A stretch of DNA of 42,049 bases from Nitrospirales bacterium. GTDB taxonomy: Bacteria; Nitrospirota; Nitrospiria; Nitrospirales; UBA8639. Both the position numbers and the translations under genes were made by a program. The stretch spans positions 1 through 42,049 of the forward strand of contig JAAXIB010000064.1 of assembly GCA_012270585.1 (NCBI GenBank), given 5' to 3'. The notes beneath the pieces are model-generated. The model ran no database searches, was not told the DNA's origin, and saw nothing but the letters and a program-made list of their open reading frames with translations. Shown piece after piece: positions 2,568-18,340 of this stretch. How positions within the stretch are numbered: the stretch's first letter is position 1; the number at the start of each line of letters is the position of its first letter.

Positions 2568-3338
2568 TCATCCGACCGGCGCGATCAGCACCACGGTCGT
2601 ATTGTCCCGGCCTCCCCGAACATTGGCCTGATCAATGAGCGCCTGACACTTTTGTTCCGGTGGGTGCGACCGCACCGTCATCAGGACGCCCAGGATGTCT
2701 TCATCATTCAGCATTTTATTCAGGCCGTCGCTGCACAGGAGAACCTCATCCGTTTGTTGAAGTTCGACCGTCGAGACGTCGACCTCGACCGCAGGGCTGA
2801 CGCCGATGCCTCGGGTGAGTACGTGCCCGTATGGGTGAGTGGTCGGTGTTGATTTGGGCAACAATCCTTGTTGGATGCGTTCTTCGAGCACGGTGTGATC
2901 CCTGGTCAATGCGGAAATCCGTCGATTCCGAATGAGATAGGCCCGGCTGTCACCTGCATGGGCAATCCAGGCGAGAGGGGAGGAAGGTACCGGCAGAAAG
3001 AACAGTACCACGGTCGTTCCCATACCGGTAAATTCGGGGTTGGCTCGGGCATAGGCCCGAACGGTTTCATTGGCATGTCCGATCGCCGACCGTAAAAACG
3101 TGGGAATCTCATGCGTGGCCGGCAGCCCTTGTGTCACACGTTCCGTCACGAAGCCGCGAATCGCGTCGACTGTTGTTTGACTGGCTACGTCTCCGCCTGC
3201 GTGTCCGCCCATGCCGTCGGCAACAACCCACAGTCCCAGTTCATTCGAGGCCAGAAAGGCGTCCTGATTCGCGGGACGTACACGGCCGACGTGCGTCATG
3301 CCGGCTCCCTGCCATCGTACCGTGTGGTCCATAATCAA
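2568..3338 (-). CDS. PP2C-family serine/threonine protein phosphatase
   Basis: A 256-residue metal-dependent phosphatase of the PrpC/Stp type that removes phosphate from Ser/Thr residues. The metal-binding motifs appear in order: VGRVRPANQDAF near the N-terminus, VVADGMGGHAGGDVAS, WIAHAGDSRAYL, LLCSDGLNKML and GGRDNTTVVL at the C-terminus. No membrane segment or extra domain is present. Its ATG overlaps the stop of the upstream exonuclease gene by four bases (ATGA), so translation of the two is coupled. No Ser/Thr kinase lies in the window, so the substrate is unknown. Confidence 0.93.
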   Translation of the reverse strand: MIMDHTVRWQGAGMTHVGRVRPANQDAFLASNELGLWVVADGMGGHAGGDVASQTTVDAIRGFVTERVTQGLPATHEIPTFLRSAIGHANETVRAYARANPEFTGMGTTVVLFFLPVPSSPLAWIAHAGDSRAYLIRNRRISALTRDHTVLEERIQQGLLPKSTPTTHPYGHVLTRGIGVSPAVEVDVSTVELQQTDEVLLCSDGLNKMLNDEDILGVLMTVRSHPPEQKCQALIDQANVRGGRDNTTVVLIAPVG

Positions 3339-4096
3339 TCGCGTCTGGGGCCCTGCCGCGCCCGAAGGGCCTGATACAGATATTCGGCAAGCGGATCGAG
3401 ATTGCGGACGTCCGCCTCATTGTACGCACGCAGCGTGTCGCCGGCCTGCTCGTCTCCGGCTTGCCATGCGTGCCATAAATTGACGGCGTCCCAGCCATCC
3501 AGGCCTTGCAGGTCGTCGGAGCGAGCCAGCCCGAGTTCGGCTTCGATGCGTTTTAACCCGCCCCGCAAGCCTAATCGTCTGGCGGCGAAACACAGGTCGA
3601 AATGGGCGTGGGAGAGATCCAGTCTGGGATAGCTCATCCGCAAATAGGGCAGGTCGAACCCCGATCCGAAAAACGTCACGATCAGATCGTACTTGGACAG
3701 TTCTTCCTGCAAGCGATCCTGCGTCAGGTTTTGGTGACGAACCAGCGTGGTCATCGAGTGGTTGCCGTACAAGCCGACCATGGTGATCTCGCCTTCTCCG
3801 GCCGGGTACCCGTTGGTTTCGATGTCCAAAAACACCGTCCGCGCGCGAAAGGCTTCGAACAGTCGCCACTGATGCGTTGCCTTGAACCGCTTGGCGACCG
3901 TGCGCCATTGCGCACTTTGGAAATCTTCCCACACTTCTGCAACTTCACGATCATAGAGAGCCTTTCGTGCGGAACCGATGCCCAAGGCGGTGGAAGTCTC
4001 AAGAAATTGCCGCCAGTGGGCCATGCCGTCGGCCCACAGACGCCGTTCCGTGGTCTCTCCGATACCCTTCAGAAAAATGAACGAACATTCAAGCAT
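3335..4096 (-). CDS. RNase H-fold DEDDy exonuclease (YprB/ribonuclease H-like family)
   Basis: A 253-residue protein whose second two-thirds form a DnaQ-like 3'-5' exonuclease domain. Exo I is FLDIETNG (D91, E93), Exo II is FGSGFDLPYL (D148), and Exo III is YNEADV (Y225, D229), giving the DEDDy set. The arrangement and the AARRLGLRGGLKRIE segment match the YprB-like ribonuclease H-like family, usually annotated as predicted exonucleases. The first 80 residues are a helical N-terminal extension. It is the first gene of a two-gene operon with the PP2C phosphatase (4-base overlap). An AGGAGG lies 14 bases before the ATG, longer than usual. Confidence 0.85.
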   Translation of the reverse strand: MLECSFIFLKGIGETTERRLWADGMAHWRQFLETSTALGIGSARKALYDREVAEVWEDFQSAQWRTVAKRFKATHQWRLFEAFRARTVFLDIETNGYPAGEGEITMVGLYGNHSMTTLVRHQNLTQDRLQEELSKYDLIVTFFGSGFDLPYLRMSYPRLDLSHAHFDLCFAARRLGLRGGLKRIEAELGLARSDDLQGLDGWDAVNLWHAWQAGDEQAGDTLRAYNEADVRNLDPLAEYLYQALRARQGPRRD

Positions 4097-4190: not shown

Positions 4191-4291
4191 TGTAGGTCGG
4201 GTTAGCAAAGCGTAACCCGACATCTTGCTTCGCTCAGGACAACCGCTAGTCATAGAATTGTTGGATTACGCTACGCTAATTCAACCTACAA
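4191..4291. repeat. REP-like inverted pair (BIME-like element)
   Basis: Two related palindromic units lie head to head. The first reads TGTAGGTCGGGTTAGCAAAG and continues to a matching arm (stem GTCGGGTT/AACCCGAC). The second, near 4260-4290, is the same type on the other strand (stem GTTGGATT/AATTCAAC, one G-T pair), with AGC/GCT-rich loops in both. Such pairs are characteristic of REP/BIME elements moved by TnpA-REP enzymes. No such transposase is in the window. The element marks the left border of the accessory region. Confidence 0.65.
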
Positions 4292-4362
4292 CTGACCTTG
4301 ATCCTGAGTTTGTTTACGAAAAGTGCCGCATCGTACAACAAAGCACTTCAGCGGACGGGTAA
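4292..4362 (+). pseudogene. Truncated 3' end of a DUF2442 gene
   Basis: These 71 bases match 6737-6807, the end of the intact DUF2442 gene, with six differences (about 92% identity), including the LDPEFVYEKCR coding stretch and the stop codon. Nothing upstream belongs to the gene: the REP-like element directly abuts it. This is therefore a decapitated copy that kept the 3' end and the adjoining attC-like site. Confidence 0.75.
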
Positions 4363-4389
4363 CGCCGCCGCTGATGCCGAGCGTTAAGC
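4333..4389. other. attC-like recombination site 1 (candidate)
   Basis: The 57-base segment starts GTACAAC (consensus RYYYAAC, one mismatch) and ends GTTAAGC (fits GTTRRRY). Inside are the inverted arms TCAGCGG and CCGCTGA around a short loop. Size, end boxes and internal hairpin are those of short integron attC sites. The site overlaps the 3' end of the truncated DUF2442 gene, and the next gene starts 15 bases later, as in gene cassettes. No integrase is visible, so the assignment is tentative. Confidence 0.45.
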
Positions 4390-4404
4390 GTGAGGGTTAA
4401 ACAT

Positions 4405-5064
4405 ATGGCTCTCGAAGAAAAAATTCGGAATAAATTTGATAAACTCATTAGTTCATCTGCAACTTTGAAACTTGGTAATAGACACGGTCAGATTCTGAAC
4501 GACCAACATAGTCAAGCTTGTAAGGCATGGCTTGCCTCAGCTCACAATTTAGCCCATTGGGTTTTAGCGTCATCGTCAAATCCCTACAAAACTGCCATCG
4601 ACAAAATCTGTTCTACTGATCGTGGCTTGCGAATTCCTGACTCTGTTGGTGCAGTCGCTGCAATGCTTGAATCACTATTGAGTGATATTGATAACGGCTT
4701 AATTTCATCAATTGAAAATCAGACAAGAGCTGTAGTTTTTGATGATTTTCTTGATCACGCCAAAGAATATGCAGAGCAAAACTTATCAAAAGAATCAGGT
4801 GTCATATCCGGTGTCGTGTTCGAAGATGCCTTGCGTACAATTTGCCGGAATCATGACATCGAAGAAAAAGGGCACAAATTGGACGAACTCATATCGGTAT
4901 TATCAAAGCAAGGGATTTTTAATGAGACCAAAGCAAAAAGGGCACGAGTCGCCGCACATGTGAGAACTAAAGCAACACATGCTCAGTGGGATGAATTTGA
5001 TATATCTGACGTAAAGACAACGATAGAATTTACCGAAGAACTCATTACTAGTAATCTTTGCTAA
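4405..5064 (+). CDS. Hypothetical protein, HEPN/DUF4145-like C-terminal region
   Basis: A soluble, largely helical 219-residue protein. The ATG at 4405 is chosen over the GTG at 4390 because GAGGG lies eight to nine bases ahead of it. The second half (KLDELISVLSKQG, then ARVAAHVRTKATHAQWDEF) resembles C-terminal regions of HEPN/DUF4145-type proteins common in defence and abortive-infection genes. That likeness is by eye only and no catalytic motif is certain. Codon use is clearly A/T-richer than in the flanking housekeeping genes, a sign of transfer. It directly precedes the secreted-protein gene and sits between two attC-like sites. Confidence 0.7.
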   Translation: MALEEKIRNKFDKLISSSATLKLGNRHGQILNDQHSQACKAWLASAHNLAHWVLASSSNPYKTAIDKICSTDRGLRIPDSVGAVAAMLESLLSDIDNGLISSIENQTRAVVFDDFLDHAKEYAEQNLSKESGVISGVVFEDALRTICRNHDIEEKGHKLDELISVLSKQGIFNETKAKRARVAAHVRTKATHAQWDEFDISDVKTTIEFTEELITSNLC

Positions 5065-5076
5065 TTGGAGATAGTT

Positions 5077-5634
5077 GTGAGATCGCGAATCATATTGTTG
5101 CTTGTTCTGATGCTGCCAGTAGTTGCATCGGGAGAGCCGACGGAAACGCCAGAATATCTAATGTCTGAACCTATGTCCCTAATGGACTGGGGTATATATC
5201 AGGCGGGTAAGAAAATGGAATCCTTCAAGAATCTCAATAACGTCCAGCCCCCACTTTTCTCAACATATTACACGGGTGGTTGGGCGCGATACGATTGGGA
5301 CGAAAACAGGATTGTTCTTTTAGGGATGTTTTATGGCAACGGCATACAAGACGAATGCACAGAAAACTTGAAGAAGCTAAAAGGTGCATTCGTGGACTTT
5401 ACTTGGGATGAAAAAGAACAAAGGGAAGCCGCAGAAAGGGTGCTAAATGGGCTTTTTAGTCACGAGGCAGACTATCAAACAAAAGGCAGACCTAGTGATG
5501 TTGGAAAACAGTTGGTCCACATCACAATAGTGGAAGCGCATATCATAACAAGCCAGAGCGAGGGCTTGCCTAAGACTACTGTCAAATGCAAGAGCACTTT
5601 CAAATCGTCAGAGTTATCGATAATAGCAAAATAG
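5077..5634 (+). CDS. Secreted hypothetical protein (signal peptide)
   Basis: A 185-residue protein with a clear signal peptide: basic start, hydrophobic core ILLLVLMLPVVA, likely cleavage after VASG or nearby. The GTG at 5077 is preferred over TTG 5065 because TTGGAGA lies six to seven bases upstream. The mature part is polar with two spaced cysteines and no recognised family. The gene starts 12 bases after its neighbour and ends one base before a GCCCAAC box, so both genes fit one cassette. Composition is A/T-rich like its partner. Confidence 0.65.
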   Translation: MRSRIILLLVLMLPVVASGEPTETPEYLMSEPMSLMDWGIYQAGKKMESFKNLNNVQPPLFSTYYTGGWARYDWDENRIVLLGMFYGNGIQDECTENLKKLKGAFVDFTWDEKEQREAAERVLNGLFSHEADYQTKGRPSDVGKQLVHITIVEAHIITSQSEGLPKTTVKCKSTFKSSELSIIAK

Positions 5635-5635
5635 A

Positions 5636-5712
5636 GCCCAACAATTACATGTGCTCGGGTAGGAAAAACTGCCGTATCGTTTTGTTTTTCCCTGCCGGTG
5701 GTGATATTAGGC
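5636..5712. other. attC-like recombination site 2 (degenerate candidate)
   Basis: GCCCAAC (5636-5642, perfect RYYYAAC) follows the stop codon of the secreted protein, and ATTAGGC (5706-5712) closes the element 77 bases later. That box departs from GTTRRRY at the otherwise invariant G. Between them GGTAGGAAAAAC pairs with GTTTTTCCCTGCC with one bulged C and one G-T pair, like the extrahelical bases of attC hairpins. A factor-independent terminator is a competing reading, although no T-tract follows the stem. Confidence 0.35.
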
Positions 5713-5738
5713 GATGATGGTCGTGTGTAGAAAACAAC

Positions 5739-5997
5739 ATGCCGGTTATCAGTAGATTTCTCGGAATTGTCATCGCCATGTTTTGGGATGATCATGTTCC
5801 CGCGCATTTTCACGCGAAGTATGGCGAGTATGAGATAATCGTTCACATCCACACGGGTGTTTGTGGAGGGACAATTTCCAAAACGGGCACTTCGACATGT
5901 GATAGAGTGGTACGAGCTACATAAGGATGAACTTTTGGACAGCTGGGAAAGGTGTCGTAGAAAAGAGGCTCCGAATCCCATCGAACCTTTGGAATAA
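5739..5997 (+). pseudogene. DUF4160 gene with a +1 frameshift
   Basis: The first 39 or so codons encode the DUF4160 N-terminus (MPVISRFLGI, then HVPAHFHAKYGEYE). The rest of the domain (VEGQFPKRALRHVIEWYELH) continues in the next frame to a stop at 5997. Removing one T near 5860 in GGGTGTTTGTGG restores an 85-residue protein of normal length. The frame break is either a real mutation, a sequencing error at a short T run, or a shift site. DUF4160 proteins are small, of unknown function, and usually precede a DUF2442 gene, as here. Confidence 0.75.
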
Positions 5998-6289
5998 TTC
6001 GATCTTTCTCCATGTGACTCATGCAAAACCTCTCGACGGCTACCGGGTAGAAGTAGGTTTCGACGACGGACGCGAAGGTATCGCGGACCTCACGGAAGCC
6101 CTCGAAGGACCGGCGTTCGAGTCATTGAAGGATCCAGATGTGTTCAGGAAGTTTCGGGTTGACGAAGAACTTCAGACTATCGTGTGGTCCAACGGAACGG
6201 ATCTGGCACCGGAATATATCTATTATCAGGCATTTCGAGACGATCCGGAACTTCAAGCTACCTTTCGCAAGTGGGGCTATGTCGTCTGA
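5927..6289 (+). CDS. DUF2442 domain protein (pair 1)
   Basis: The recognisable DUF2442 domain runs from LHVTHAKPLDGYRVEVGF to the C-terminus, with GREGIADL, FRKFRVDEELQTIVW and NGTDLAPEYIY, the usual landmarks. The ATG at 5927 lies within the 3' end of the DUF4160 gene in another frame and adds about 26 residues foreign to the family. A GTG at 6014 would start inside the domain, so the true start is uncertain. DUF2442 proteins are small, of unknown function, and are partners of DUF4160. The coupled arrangement resembles toxin-antitoxin pairs, which is inference. Its stop overlaps the start of a second DUF4160 gene. Confidence 0.75.
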   Translation: MNFWTAGKGVVEKRLRIPSNLWNNSIFLHVTHAKPLDGYRVEVGFDDGREGIADLTEALEGPAFESLKDPDVFRKFRVDEELQTIVWSNGTDLAPEYIYYQAFRDDPELQATFRKWGYVV

Positions 6290-6536
6290 CCCGGTGCTTC
6301 ACACGGACCGGCTATGCGGGGCTGGCGAGCACCCTCCGCCTCACTTTCATGTTTATTACGCTGAACATAAAGCAAAGGTTGATATTCGCACTTGTGAGAT
6401 TATTGACGGCACGTTGCCAAAAAAGCAGACGAAATTAGTTTTGGCTTGGGCAGAGCTGCACCATGAAGATCTTGTGGCAAATTGGGAACTCGTCATGAAT
6501 GACGAAGAACCATTTAAGATTCAACCATTACAATGA
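6279..6536 (+). CDS. DUF4160 domain protein (pair 2)
   Basis: An 85-residue product with the family core PPPHFHVYYAEHKAKVDI, the LPKKQTKLVLAWAELHHEDL helix and a C-terminal EPFKIQPLQ. The ATG at 6279 overlaps the end of the preceding DUF2442 gene by 11 bases, indicating translational coupling. The first 17 residues (DPVLHTDRLCGAGE) differ from the usual family start (P-I-S-x-F-x-G-I), suggesting divergence or N-terminal decay. It is followed by a second DUF2442 gene 10 bases downstream. Confidence 0.75.
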   Translation: MSSDPVLHTDRLCGAGEHPPPHFHVYYAEHKAKVDIRTCEIIDGTLPKKQTKLVLAWAELHHEDLVANWELVMNDEEPFKIQPLQ

Positions 6537-6546
6537 GGACAATCTG

Positions 6547-6807
6547 ATGCACCGTGCTGTGGTATCTGTTGAGTGTCGAGAAGATTACATCTTGTCAATA
6601 GTTTTTGATAATGGAGAGGGCGGATTACTGGATATGAAGCCTTACTTAAATCTTGGGGTTTTTAAAAAAATACAAAATCCAAGCGTCTTCGAGACAGTTC
6701 ATGTCTCGTTTGACACAATTGCATGGGAATCTGGCGCTGATCTTGATCCTGAGTTTGTTTACGAGAAGTGCCGTATTGTACAACAAAGCGCTTCAGCGGA
6801 CGAGTAA
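6547..6807 (+). CDS. DUF2442 domain protein (pair 2)
   Basis: An 86-residue protein with the domain landmarks VSVECREDYILSIVFDNGEG, FKKIQNPSVF and SGADLDPEFVY. The ATG at 6547 follows GAGGACAATCTG. The last nine residues (QQSASADE and stop) are encoded by an attC-like site, as often seen in integron cassettes. Its terminal 71 bases are duplicated at 4292-4362. Function unknown. The DUF4160-DUF2442-DUF4160-DUF2442 order is a tandem duplication of a two-gene unit, although the two pairs have diverged strongly from one another. Confidence 0.8.
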   Translation: MHRAVVSVECREDYILSIVFDNGEGGLLDMKPYLNLGVFKKIQNPSVFETVHVSFDTIAWESGADLDPEFVYEKCRIVQQSASADE

Positions 6808-6832
6808 GCCGCCGCTACGTTTAGCGTTACCC
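6778..6832. other. attC-like recombination site 3 (candidate)
   Basis: This is a near copy of site 1: GTACAAC at the left, the arms TCAGCGG and CCGCT, and GCGTTACCC at the right (GTT conserved, then ACC instead of RRR). Total 55 bases. It overlaps the end of the DUF2442 gene, and the next start codon lies nine bases downstream. The same hairpin core in sites 1 and 3 shows a shared origin. No integrase is seen. Confidence 0.45.
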
Positions 6833-6840
6833 GAAAAGCA

Positions 6841-7296
6841 ATGTCACACTGGAATTACAGAGTCATCAGGGAGCATCATCCCGAACCAGACTCGGTGGCG
6901 TATCAAGTCCACGAGGTGTATTACCGGGAGGACGGCGGCATAGAAGGTTGGACACAAGCACCAGTTGCGCCTATGGGTGAAACGGCTGAGGAACTCAGAG
7001 AAGACATCAGGTATTTTCTCCATGCGTTCCGTCGTCCTATACTTGAAGTAAAAGAAACAGACGAAGGGGCAACCCTCGTTTCTGACGATACGGGCGATGC
7101 CATCAATGATGGCCACTATTTCGAACTCATGGATCGGGCGTCGGTCGCATTAGATTACATGTATCAATTTCTTGGCAGCCACCCGCTTATCAGGAAAGAC
7201 AAAACACTGCAAGGCATGTATGAAAAAGCGGAGGAGGCTTTAGCTGAACTCTATCAACGAGCCGGCCTGTTGGAGTTTGATAGAAGCAGCAGCTAA
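6841..7296 (+). CDS. Conserved hypothetical protein (151 aa)
   Basis: A soluble, acidic 151-residue protein beginning SHWNYRVIREHHPEPDSV, with ETAEELREDIRYFLHAF in the middle and a helical C-terminus. I know similar-looking short proteins as uncharacterised ORFs scattered among bacteria, but can name no domain. It begins directly after attC-like site 3, so it would be the first gene of the next cassette. No strong ribosome binding site is seen, which is also common for cassette genes. Confidence 0.7.
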   Translation: MSHWNYRVIREHHPEPDSVAYQVHEVYYREDGGIEGWTQAPVAPMGETAEELREDIRYFLHAFRRPILEVKETDEGATLVSDDTGDAINDGHYFELMDRASVALDYMYQFLGSHPLIRKDKTLQGMYEKAEEALAELYQRAGLLEFDRSSS

Positions 7297-7370
7297 CAGG
7301 GCAAGCCCAGTTCACTTCACTTTTCGGCGTCTGATTTGCAACATGATGTCTTACGTAGAGGAGAGATCTT

Positions 7371-7556
7371 ATGGCAATAGCGAAAGAGAAGATGAAGGAA
7401 GTAATCGAGTCGCAGCCGGATGACGCAACTTATGAGGAAATCCTGCGCGAACTTACGTTCGAACGCATGATCGAGCGTGGTCTTACGGATTCCCGAGAGG
7501 GCCATGTGATATCAAATGAGAAGATGGAGCACCGTATTCGCTCGTGGCAGAGATAA
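7371..7556 (+). CDS. Orphan antitoxin of a RelE/ParE-type module
   Basis: A 61-residue, highly charged protein (KEKMKEVIESQPDDATYEEI then ELTFERMIERGL) of the small antitoxin type that precedes RelE/ParE toxins. A good ribosome binding site (GAGGAGAG) lies upstream. At its 3' end the first codons of a toxin overlap its stop (GTG at 7544, VAEIRWT, the typical ParE start), but that reading frame runs into unrelated sequence after about eight codons. The toxin has therefore been deleted and the antitoxin stands alone. Confidence 0.75.
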   Translation: MAIAKEKMKEVIESQPDDATYEEILRELTFERMIERGLTDSREGHVISNEKMEHRIRSWQR

Positions 7557-7570
7557 GGTGGACAAATTTC
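7544..7570 (+). pseudogene. 5' stub of a ParE/RelE toxin gene
   Basis: GTG at 7544 opens a frame coding VAEIRWTN, the usual first residues of ParE-type toxins, overlapping the end of the antitoxin gene by 13 bases as in intact modules. After about eight codons the similarity stops and the sequence continues into the leader of the cyclophilin-like gene. The junction marks a deletion boundary between accessory and core DNA. Confidence 0.55.
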
Positions 7571-7621
7571 TTTCTACCTGCGTTCCGGGGCTTGCGATCG
7601 AAATATGGGGAGAACTTGCTG

Positions 7622-8011
7622 ATGGACGACAAACCAAAGCGGATTAAAATGACGGTTGGCGGCGTTGCCGTGGAAGTGGAGTTGAAACCGACGCGCACGG
7701 CGCAGGCCATCTACGACGCCTTGCCGGTTGAAGCCAAGGTGAACCAATGGGGAGAGGAATTTTATTGCCGGCTTCCCGGAGTCAAGGACTACCGTGAAAC
7801 CGCGACGACGAATGTGAAAGTGGGAGACGTCGCGTATTGGGGGCTTGGGGGCATGTTGGCTGTTTTTTTTGGACGAACCCCCATGAGTATTGGGGAAGAC
7901 CCGGTCCCGGCGGATCGGGTCAACGTCGTCGGACGGTTGATCGGAGATCCAACGGTGCTTCATGGAGCCGTCGGCGCCACGATGATGAAAGTCGAAAAGG
8001 TTGCTTCATAA
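7622..8011 (+). CDS. Cyclophilin-like fold protein (TM1367/DUF3830-type)
   Basis: A 129-residue protein with the small beta-barrel pattern of the cyclophilin-like family: an early strand (KMTVGGVAVEVELKPTRTAQ), a central EEFYCRLPG, then GDVAYWGLGGMLAVFFGRTP, PADRVNVVGRL and VEKV. Proteins of this fold have no proven isomerase activity. The ATG at 7622 has GGGGAGA eight bases upstream; the in-frame GTG at 7544 belongs to the toxin stub. It is followed four bases later by the first DUF507 gene, so the two form an operon. Confidence 0.8.
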   Translation: MDDKPKRIKMTVGGVAVEVELKPTRTAQAIYDALPVEAKVNQWGEEFYCRLPGVKDYRETATTNVKVGDVAYWGLGGMLAVFFGRTPMSIGEDPVPADRVNVVGRLIGDPTVLHGAVGATMMKVEKVAS

Positions 8012-17627: not shown

Positions 17628-18340
17628 GGGGCTGTCCTAGCTAAGGGCTAGTGGTAGGCGTGTTTATACCAGGATCTAAGCTGCTGAAGCAGGGCTTGAT
17701 GATTGGCTCCATTGAAGCGCCATTCACACTCCTTCAAAAACCAGTAAAAATTCTCGGGTTTGAAGCCGTTGAACTTCCGCAAGTGCCGCTTTGCCTGGTT
17801 CCAGAAGTGCTCAAGGCCGTTGATATGTTTGTCGTGGTCGGCAAAGCGGCTGGAATGGTTGATCCGTAGATGGTGAAACTCACTGACGTCCAACGCATTG
17901 TAAGCCCGAAAGGCCTCGGTGTACACGATGCTGTCCGGCTGCACGTGCTGCCGGATAATCGGCCGGAGATTGGCCGTGTGGGCGGTCGGGACCATCGCGG
18001 TGTAGACCTTCCCGCCCCGCTTCAACAGCTCGAAGACGACGACTTTGCCTGCGGCTCCGCGTCCGCGTCGGCCCTTGCGAATCCCGCCGAAATAACTCTC
18101 GTCGGCCTCGACTTTCCCCGACAAGCGATAGCTCGGCAATTTGCCCGCGATGAGCTTACGCAGCCGCAGGTAGACCCCAGCCGCCGTGTTGCGATGGCCC
18201 CCAATGATCTCTGCGGCTGCCCGCGCCGTGGCCCCAGCGACGAACAGCTTTAGGAGGGCCCCTTGTTTGTGGGGACTTAACCGAGTCCAGCGGATATACA
18301 CTTGGCTATTCTAAACGTTTTGCTTAGCCAGGACAGCCCC
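17628..18340 (-). mobile_element. Insertion sequence, IS1595 family (IS1016-like)
   Basis: A 713-base element bounded by 18-base terminal inverted repeats: left 17628-17645 (GGGGCTGTCCTAGCTAAG) and right 18323-18340, with one mismatch. It holds one transposase gene on the minus strand. The eight bases on each side are CAACTTTA and CAAAAAAA, so no clear target duplication remains, suggesting an old copy or a rearrangement at one end. It abuts the broken HicB gene. Confidence 0.88.
17648..18301 (-). CDS. IS1595-family transposase
   Basis: A 217-residue DDE-type transposase of the IS1016 group. Order: N-terminal helix-turn-helix region (LSPHKQGALLKLFVAGATAR), first catalytic Asp in EADESYFGG (D67), then VYTEAFRAYNAL where the family normally has TD: the second catalytic residue reads Glu (E129), and finally HINGLEHFWNQAKRHLRKFNG with the third acidic/Asn position. 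The D-to-E change may impair catalysis. The GTG start at 18301 gives a full-length protein. Confidence 0.88.
   Translation of the reverse strand: MYIRWTRLSPHKQGALLKLFVAGATARAAAEIIGGHRNTAAGVYLRLRKLIAGKLPSYRLSGKVEADESYFGGIRKGRRGRGAAGKVVVFELLKRGGKVYTAMVPTAHTANLRPIIRQHVQPDSIVYTEAFRAYNALDVSEFHHLRINHSSRFADHDKHINGLEHFWNQAKRHLRKFNGFKPENFYWFLKECEWRFNGANHQALLQQLRSWYKHAYH

Follow-up and report, generated by a model that had tools for sequence, protein, structure and literature searches.

A region between positions 4292 and 7349 of a 42,049-nucleotide stretch (the window) of a Nitrospirales genome (GCA_012270585.1, contig JAAXIB010000064.1) is very probably a small array of integron cassettes that is partly decayed and has no integrase, in other words a cluster of attC sites lacking integrases (CALIN). 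A decayed CALIN is a known kind of element, and this one sits in a toxin-antitoxin and defence hotspot. The attC site is a hairpin, of which the integron integrase (IntI) cuts the bottom strand between G and TT. The CALIN, which had been proposed as a possibly decayed array in a reading of the sequence alone, holds because two attC sites, 2.4 kb apart, are confirmed by models, cassette boundaries fall at the cleavage point and there is no IntI in the genome. The order of elements is a dhiA remnant, attC1, genes for a HEPN protein and an exported protein, a decayed attC2, a dhiTA pair with a broken toxin gene, an attC trace, a second dhiTA pair, attC3, a gene for a 151-residue protein and a decayed attC4. 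The sites are the following:

4333-4389, + strand: attC1 (R'' GTACAAC, R' GTTAAGC), found by profile and covariance model
5636-5712, + strand: site 2, a decayed attC (R'' GCCCAAC, R' ATTAGGC), at a homology edge with genome G173
6284-6308, + strand: trace of an attC 5' arm, 3' arm lost, after the first dhiA-like gene; weak
6778-6832, + strand: attC3 (R'' GTACAAC, degenerate R' GTTACCC), found by profile and covariance model
7291-7349, + strand: attC4, decayed (R'' AGCTAAC, R' changed to ATGATGT), with an intact homologous site in genome G303

The fourth site, the trace and the dhiA (DUF2442) 3' remnant in front of attC1 were not part of the sequence-only reading, which had proposed three attC segments.

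Recognition of the attC sites

To score the sites, we used a two-arm profile with an arm-pairing term, trained on 13 attC sites taken from integron loci within the phylum but outside the genus, with 400 dinucleotide shuffles of the 42 kb window as background and both strands scanned. The top two places in the window are exactly 4333-4389 (50.5) and 6778-6832 (42.7), while the third-best place scores 21.7 and the highest shuffle 31.3. When the two most similar training sites, which carry the CAGCGGAC motif, were removed, attC1 scored 48.2 and attC3 39.0, against a shuffle maximum of 32.0. A covariance model was also built for this analysis from 17 attC sites of the phylum (other genera), and used rather than that of IntegronFinder. 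In its training set the L helix covaries strongly, the basal L-helix position is unpaired in 16 of the 17 sites and the extrahelical A is present. This model recognises attC1 with 34.7 bits (E-value 8.7e-7) and attC3 with 21.2 bits (E-value 0.0026), and nothing else in the window. Over the whole genome attC1 alone passes an E-value of 0.1, attC3 dropping out at the larger search size, and no attC beyond the window sites is found. Two of the three proposed segments were thus returned by both models with their exact coordinates; the case for the middle one, 5636-5712, comes from relatives.

Relative to the R-box consensus RYYYAAC/GTTRRRY, R' of attC1 fits and R' of attC3 deviates, and the R'' box common to both is one base off. 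A search for near-perfect R-box pairs did not pick up these sites, because their R boxes pair poorly, and Rfam gave no match at the attC-like sites, its sole match being a tRNA. In the homologs of attC1 and attC3 within the genus, 95% of the L-helix pairs are kept and two pairs are changed on both sides. Stop codons lie inside attC1 and attC3, and at 5634, just before site 2, in agreement with the abutting or overlapping stops first noticed. Folding of the bottom strands, which had been suggested as a check, gave a hairpin for attC1 (z −2.2) and nothing better than shuffles for site 2 (z −0.7) or attC3, although the folding z-score is a poor discriminator, a good attC (locus L140) giving 0.05.

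We rejected the possibility that the sites belong to a dispersed repeat, which the sequence-only reading had kept as an alternative, since the core of sites 1 and 3 occurs just twice in the whole genome, against 46 copies of a neighbouring palindrome. No plasmid record matches the dhiA-attC3 stretch.

Decayed sites and cassette boundaries

Site 2 retains an R'' box that fits RYYYAAC, whereas its R' box deviates from GTTRRRY. In G173, which is of the same genus, the DUF4160 gene found here stands behind a true attC (score 40.0) that ends in GTTAGGT. The homology that G173 shares with the window sets in at 5707, on the first T of A|TTAGGC, which corresponds exactly to the G|TT cleavage position. 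Site 2 is shared by genome G187, likewise without the G, and only its 5' arm is retained in G303. These states therefore point to an old boundary at a site that has decayed. Site 2 is likely a former attC, judged entirely by comparison with relatives.

The attC4 sequence, AGCTAAC...GCAACATGATGT, follows the gene for the 151-residue protein, and its intact counterpart in G303 is recognised by the covariance model (18.9 bits, E-value 0.04; locus L127). Several species have decayed versions of sites 2 and 4. The 5' arm of the trace at 6284-6308 ranks 22nd among about 42,000 positions, a weak signal, and homology blocks of four relatives have edges at 6291-6307, over the trace. Among eight relatives, 11 of the 20 block edges lie within four sites, which make up 7.6% of the region; with nearby edges clustered, 8 of 13 fall in sites (binomial p about 1e-6, the edges being not fully independent). 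Some edges fall outside attC sites.

Behind homologous dhiA-attC ends, the HEPN gene follows at site 1 and in G187, and the gene for the 151-residue protein at site 3 and in G199, G387 and G277. The same cassette end thus has different neighbours.

Several observations weigh against an integron origin. The two recognised sites are copies of one dhiA-attC unit and hence not independent, and R'' and R' pair poorly in both and in their homologs (65% of R-stem cells). The bottom strand of attC3 has no significant fold (z −0.2, with the good attC of L140 also near 0). Site 2 fails both models, with a profile score of 3.4, equal to background, and no covariance match, and attC4 fails them in the window. 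The locus showed no remnant of an integrase (no search was made for attI), and homologous recombination between attC copies could likewise give breakpoints inside attC sites. An explanation without any integron history is that the attC-like segments are merely duplicated dhiA 3' ends, in an ordinary toxin-antitoxin island formed by duplication and homologous recombination. Sites 1 and 3 do both end dhiA-like sequence, in stretches that are 91% identical, and the fused repeat and broken genes of the locus show ordinary recombination. We consider this explanation highly improbable in view of the detection of both sites by profiles from unrelated attC sites beside intI genes, the attC sites of unrelated sequence at cassette boundaries of the same locus in G173 and G303, and the occurrence of the 151-residue gene as an attC-flanked cassette in Nitrococcus.

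Integrase and origin of the cassettes

An intI gene was sought elsewhere in the genome, as the sequence-only reading had advised, and TIGR02249 found only two tyrosine recombinases (best 86 bits, against a cut-off of 265), one XerC-like, beside a trmFO-like gene, and the other XerD-like. There is no IntI in this genome, which is rated 100% complete, hence none adjoining the array, and none in the 14 sampled genomes of the genus, this one included.

In the phylum as a whole, IntI is present in 99 of 396 genomes (72 of the 169 genera sampled), including two other genera of the same family. Within the order, attC sites were found in 112 of 197 genomes (26 of the 35 genera sampled), at a threshold for which chance alone would give about two. 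Named relatives are Nitrospira sp. bin75 and other Nitrospirales metagenome-assembled genomes. CALINs have been published for Ca. Nitrospira inopinata (PMC9024848). Integrons are therefore common but little described in this lineage, and a CALIN there is not unexpected, contrary to what was first supposed. As over half of the genomes sampled in the order have attC, integrons appear to play a larger part in shaping Nitrospirota genomes than the small number of published cases would indicate. In integrons of the phylum (G141:C1:2406073-2416071, L054, L056, L058) the attC arrays follow intI downstream and share its strand, which is the orientation known from Treponema and not the divergent class 1 layout. 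Several nearly complete genomes of the order, G200, G208 and G383 among them, have 8-11 attC matches and no IntI match; those of G200 are spread across several contigs, which suggests that many were inserted outside arrays.

The CALIN of Ca. Nitrospira inopinata resembles the present one in having at least two clustered attC sites and no IntI, in the order Nitrospirales. The window has fewer and more decayed sites than the CALINs of that report, which average almost six attC each (PMC9024848), and differs in belonging to another genus and in occupying a conserved locus, which holds nothing in two relatives. In Treponema phagedenis, intI was lost and attC sites were left on the chromosome (PMC3607928), and here too chromosomal attC sites remain with no intI found in the genome. 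In the present case, however, all 14 sampled genomes of the genus lack intI, and it is only conjectural that the locus was the integron's own site.

In the proposed mechanism, each cassette would have ended in an attC site cut by IntI at G|TT, and the cassettes would have been inserted by IntI, either a resident integrase since lost or one acting in trans. The toxin-antitoxin and defence-like genes would then have been retained through selection or addiction while the attC sites decayed, and homologous recombination between the repeated dhiA-attC ends may have rearranged the locus later. The cassettes may have arrived by way of a resident integron that was later lost, through an IntI acting in trans, or by transfer of an island together with homologous recombination.

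One version of events is that the block came ready-made by island transfer, for example between symbionts of one host, and was rearranged by dhiA-attC homologous recombination, IntI having acted only in an earlier host. The repeated dhiA-attC units provide the homology. Gammaproteobacterial metagenome-assembled genomes (MAGs) have a 151-residue gene that is about 80% identical, and in one such MAG it follows a dhiA-like end. The break in homology at 5707, however, is exactly at the IntI cleavage point and not inside shared sequence, and we hold this version to be possible though somewhat improbable. It is compatible with the CALIN reading and concerns only how the block arrived.

It is less probable still that the cassettes remain mobile, exchanged today by an IntI in trans from a plasmid, the DNA of another cell or an unsampled species. 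The contents of the locus do vary from one species of the genus to another, two other genera of the family have IntI, and attC1 of the window and the attC of G187 retain good scores. Against this, IntI is absent from all 14 genomes of the genus, several species have sites 2 and 4 in a decayed state, R-box pairing is poor across the genus and block edges also fall outside attC sites. We are similarly doubtful of the broader idea that, in a genus without integrase in 14 genomes, a fixed locus keeps gaining or exchanging toxin-antitoxin and defence cassettes, through IntI in trans or homologous recombination at attC ends; if true, it would be a cassette platform lacking its own integrase.

Cassette genes and their locus

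The genes of the region and its borders are listed below.

3335-4096, − strand: nuclease gene at the fixed left border, with homologs at the same border in same-genus genomes; presumably yprB-like, named by resemblance
4192-4291, + strand: interspersed palindromic element fused to the dhiA remnant; same junction in G199
4292-4362, + strand: dhiA-like (DUF2442) 3' remnant, stop codon within attC1
4405-5064, + strand: HEPN-domain protein gene, cassette B (PF05168, 23 bits, barely over the cut-off of 22)
5065-5634, + strand: gene of unknown function, cassette B, signal-peptide-like start by eye; no family match
5739-5998, + strand: dhiT-like toxin gene (DUF4160), frameshifted, two PF13711 pieces in different frames
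5927-6289, + strand: dhiA-like antitoxin gene (DUF2442; PF10387, 51.2 bits), true start probably further in
6309-6536, + strand: second dhiT-like gene (DUF4160), N-terminus missing (PF13711, 72.5 bits from profile position 12)
6547-6807, + strand: second dhiA-like antitoxin gene (DUF2442; PF10387, 51.7 bits), stop codon within attC3
6841-7296, + strand: conserved unknown 151-residue protein (MSHWNYRV...), cassette D, relatives in several phyla
7371-7556, + strand: small antitoxin-like open reading frame (ORF), common to G387, G199 and G065
7568-7622, + strand: vapC-like (PIN) 3' remnant running into the start of the cyclophilin-like gene; in relatives, the ends of intact PIN genes align with it
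7623-8011, + strand: cyclophilin-like gene at the fixed right border (PF04126, 108.8 bits), in 14/14 genomes of the genus

The dhiTA system, a DUF4160 toxin with a DUF2442 antitoxin, was shown to work in Dickeya dadantii (PMC8198452). The same gene order, DUF4160 followed by DUF2442, is present twice in the window, with PF13711 and PF10387 above their cut-offs. The window pairs are known by sequence, do not reach the NCBIfam equivalog cut-offs (DhiT 45.8 and 59.6 bits against 100, DhiA 22.9 against 200) and, unlike the Dickeya genes, are integron cassettes in which both toxin copies are damaged. The reading frame of the first dhiT-like gene is open in G173, G187 and G357, and the second is full length in G387. 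Most of the genomes are drafts assembled from uncultured bacteria, in which frameshifts and gaps could be assembly errors. The dhiA remnant at 4292-4362 aligns with the end of the ORF at 6547-6807 and with the ends of intact copies in G187, G387 and G277.

The HEPN gene lies directly behind an attC in G187 as well. Its neighbour at 5065-5634 has no match in Pfam, NCBIfam or PADLOC, and PADLOC matches no gene of the window. Relatives of the 151-residue protein occur in Gammaproteobacteria, Gemmatimonadota and Scalindua. In Nitrococcus (L140) its gene has an intact attC on either side, and in Desulfobacteraceae (L142) it comes directly after one, which independently supports the view that this gene family moves as a cassette. 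The predicted structure of the protein (mean predicted local distance difference test, pLDDT, 76.5) has no convincing solved relative, the best match having an E-value of 0.004 and a template-modelling (TM) score below 0.3.

The ratios of nonsynonymous to synonymous substitution rates (dN/dS) are 0.19 for the HEPN gene, 0.27 for the exported-protein gene (against G187), 0.18-0.19 for the second dhiA-like gene and 0.12-0.18 for the 151-residue gene. The genes tested (HEPN, exported-protein, antitoxin and 151-residue genes) are under purifying selection (0.12-0.27). The CALIN is a case of integron cassettes in an uncultured Nitrospirales genus without a resident integrase: the recombination sites are eroding, but the toxin-antitoxin and defence-like genes that the cassettes contribute stay under purifying selection.

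The GC content of the island is lowered, to about 0.42-0.51, which bears out the A/T-rich tendency first noted. In G081 and G202 the yprB-like and cyclophilin-like genes are about 120 bases apart, with the gap empty, whereas in G065, G387, G173, G187, G357, G277 and the window it spans 1.2 to 5.4 kb with differing contents; G303 and G199 have related content on broken contigs. The contents across the genus include dhiTA, VapBC, a ParE-type toxin, KAP NTPase, GmrSD and VRR-NUC proteins, and the locus is therefore a toxin-antitoxin and defence hotspot. The 14 genomes form a natural series of empty, intact and decayed loci on how cassettes become fixed genes. This graded series within one genus and the intI and attC fractions of the Nitrospirota are the more interesting by-products of the analysis.

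In G065, the antitoxin-like ORF at 7371-7556 is followed by a ParE-family toxin gene. Beside the yprB-like gene, the hotspots of G065, G387, G173, G357 and G199 have an ORF of about 150 codons (MNxNPQITGNMGMYYTCYKLS...) with no Pfam family and nuclease-like by eye; the window lacks this ORF but keeps the repeat that comes after it. The core of the palindromic element, GTAGGTCGGGTTAGCNNAGCGTAACCCGAC (window 4192-4221), has 46 copies in the genome and 0 in the control. It shows compensating stem changes (GGATT/AATCC) and is of the repetitive extragenic palindromic (REP)-like kind, fused to gene ends at the locus. In G202, where the gap is empty, an isolated attC precedes an AbiJ-like gene at another locus (L118 1501-1558; G202:C55:12210-12267). 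Further along the window, an IS1595-family transposase gene lies on the minus strand at 17648-18301.

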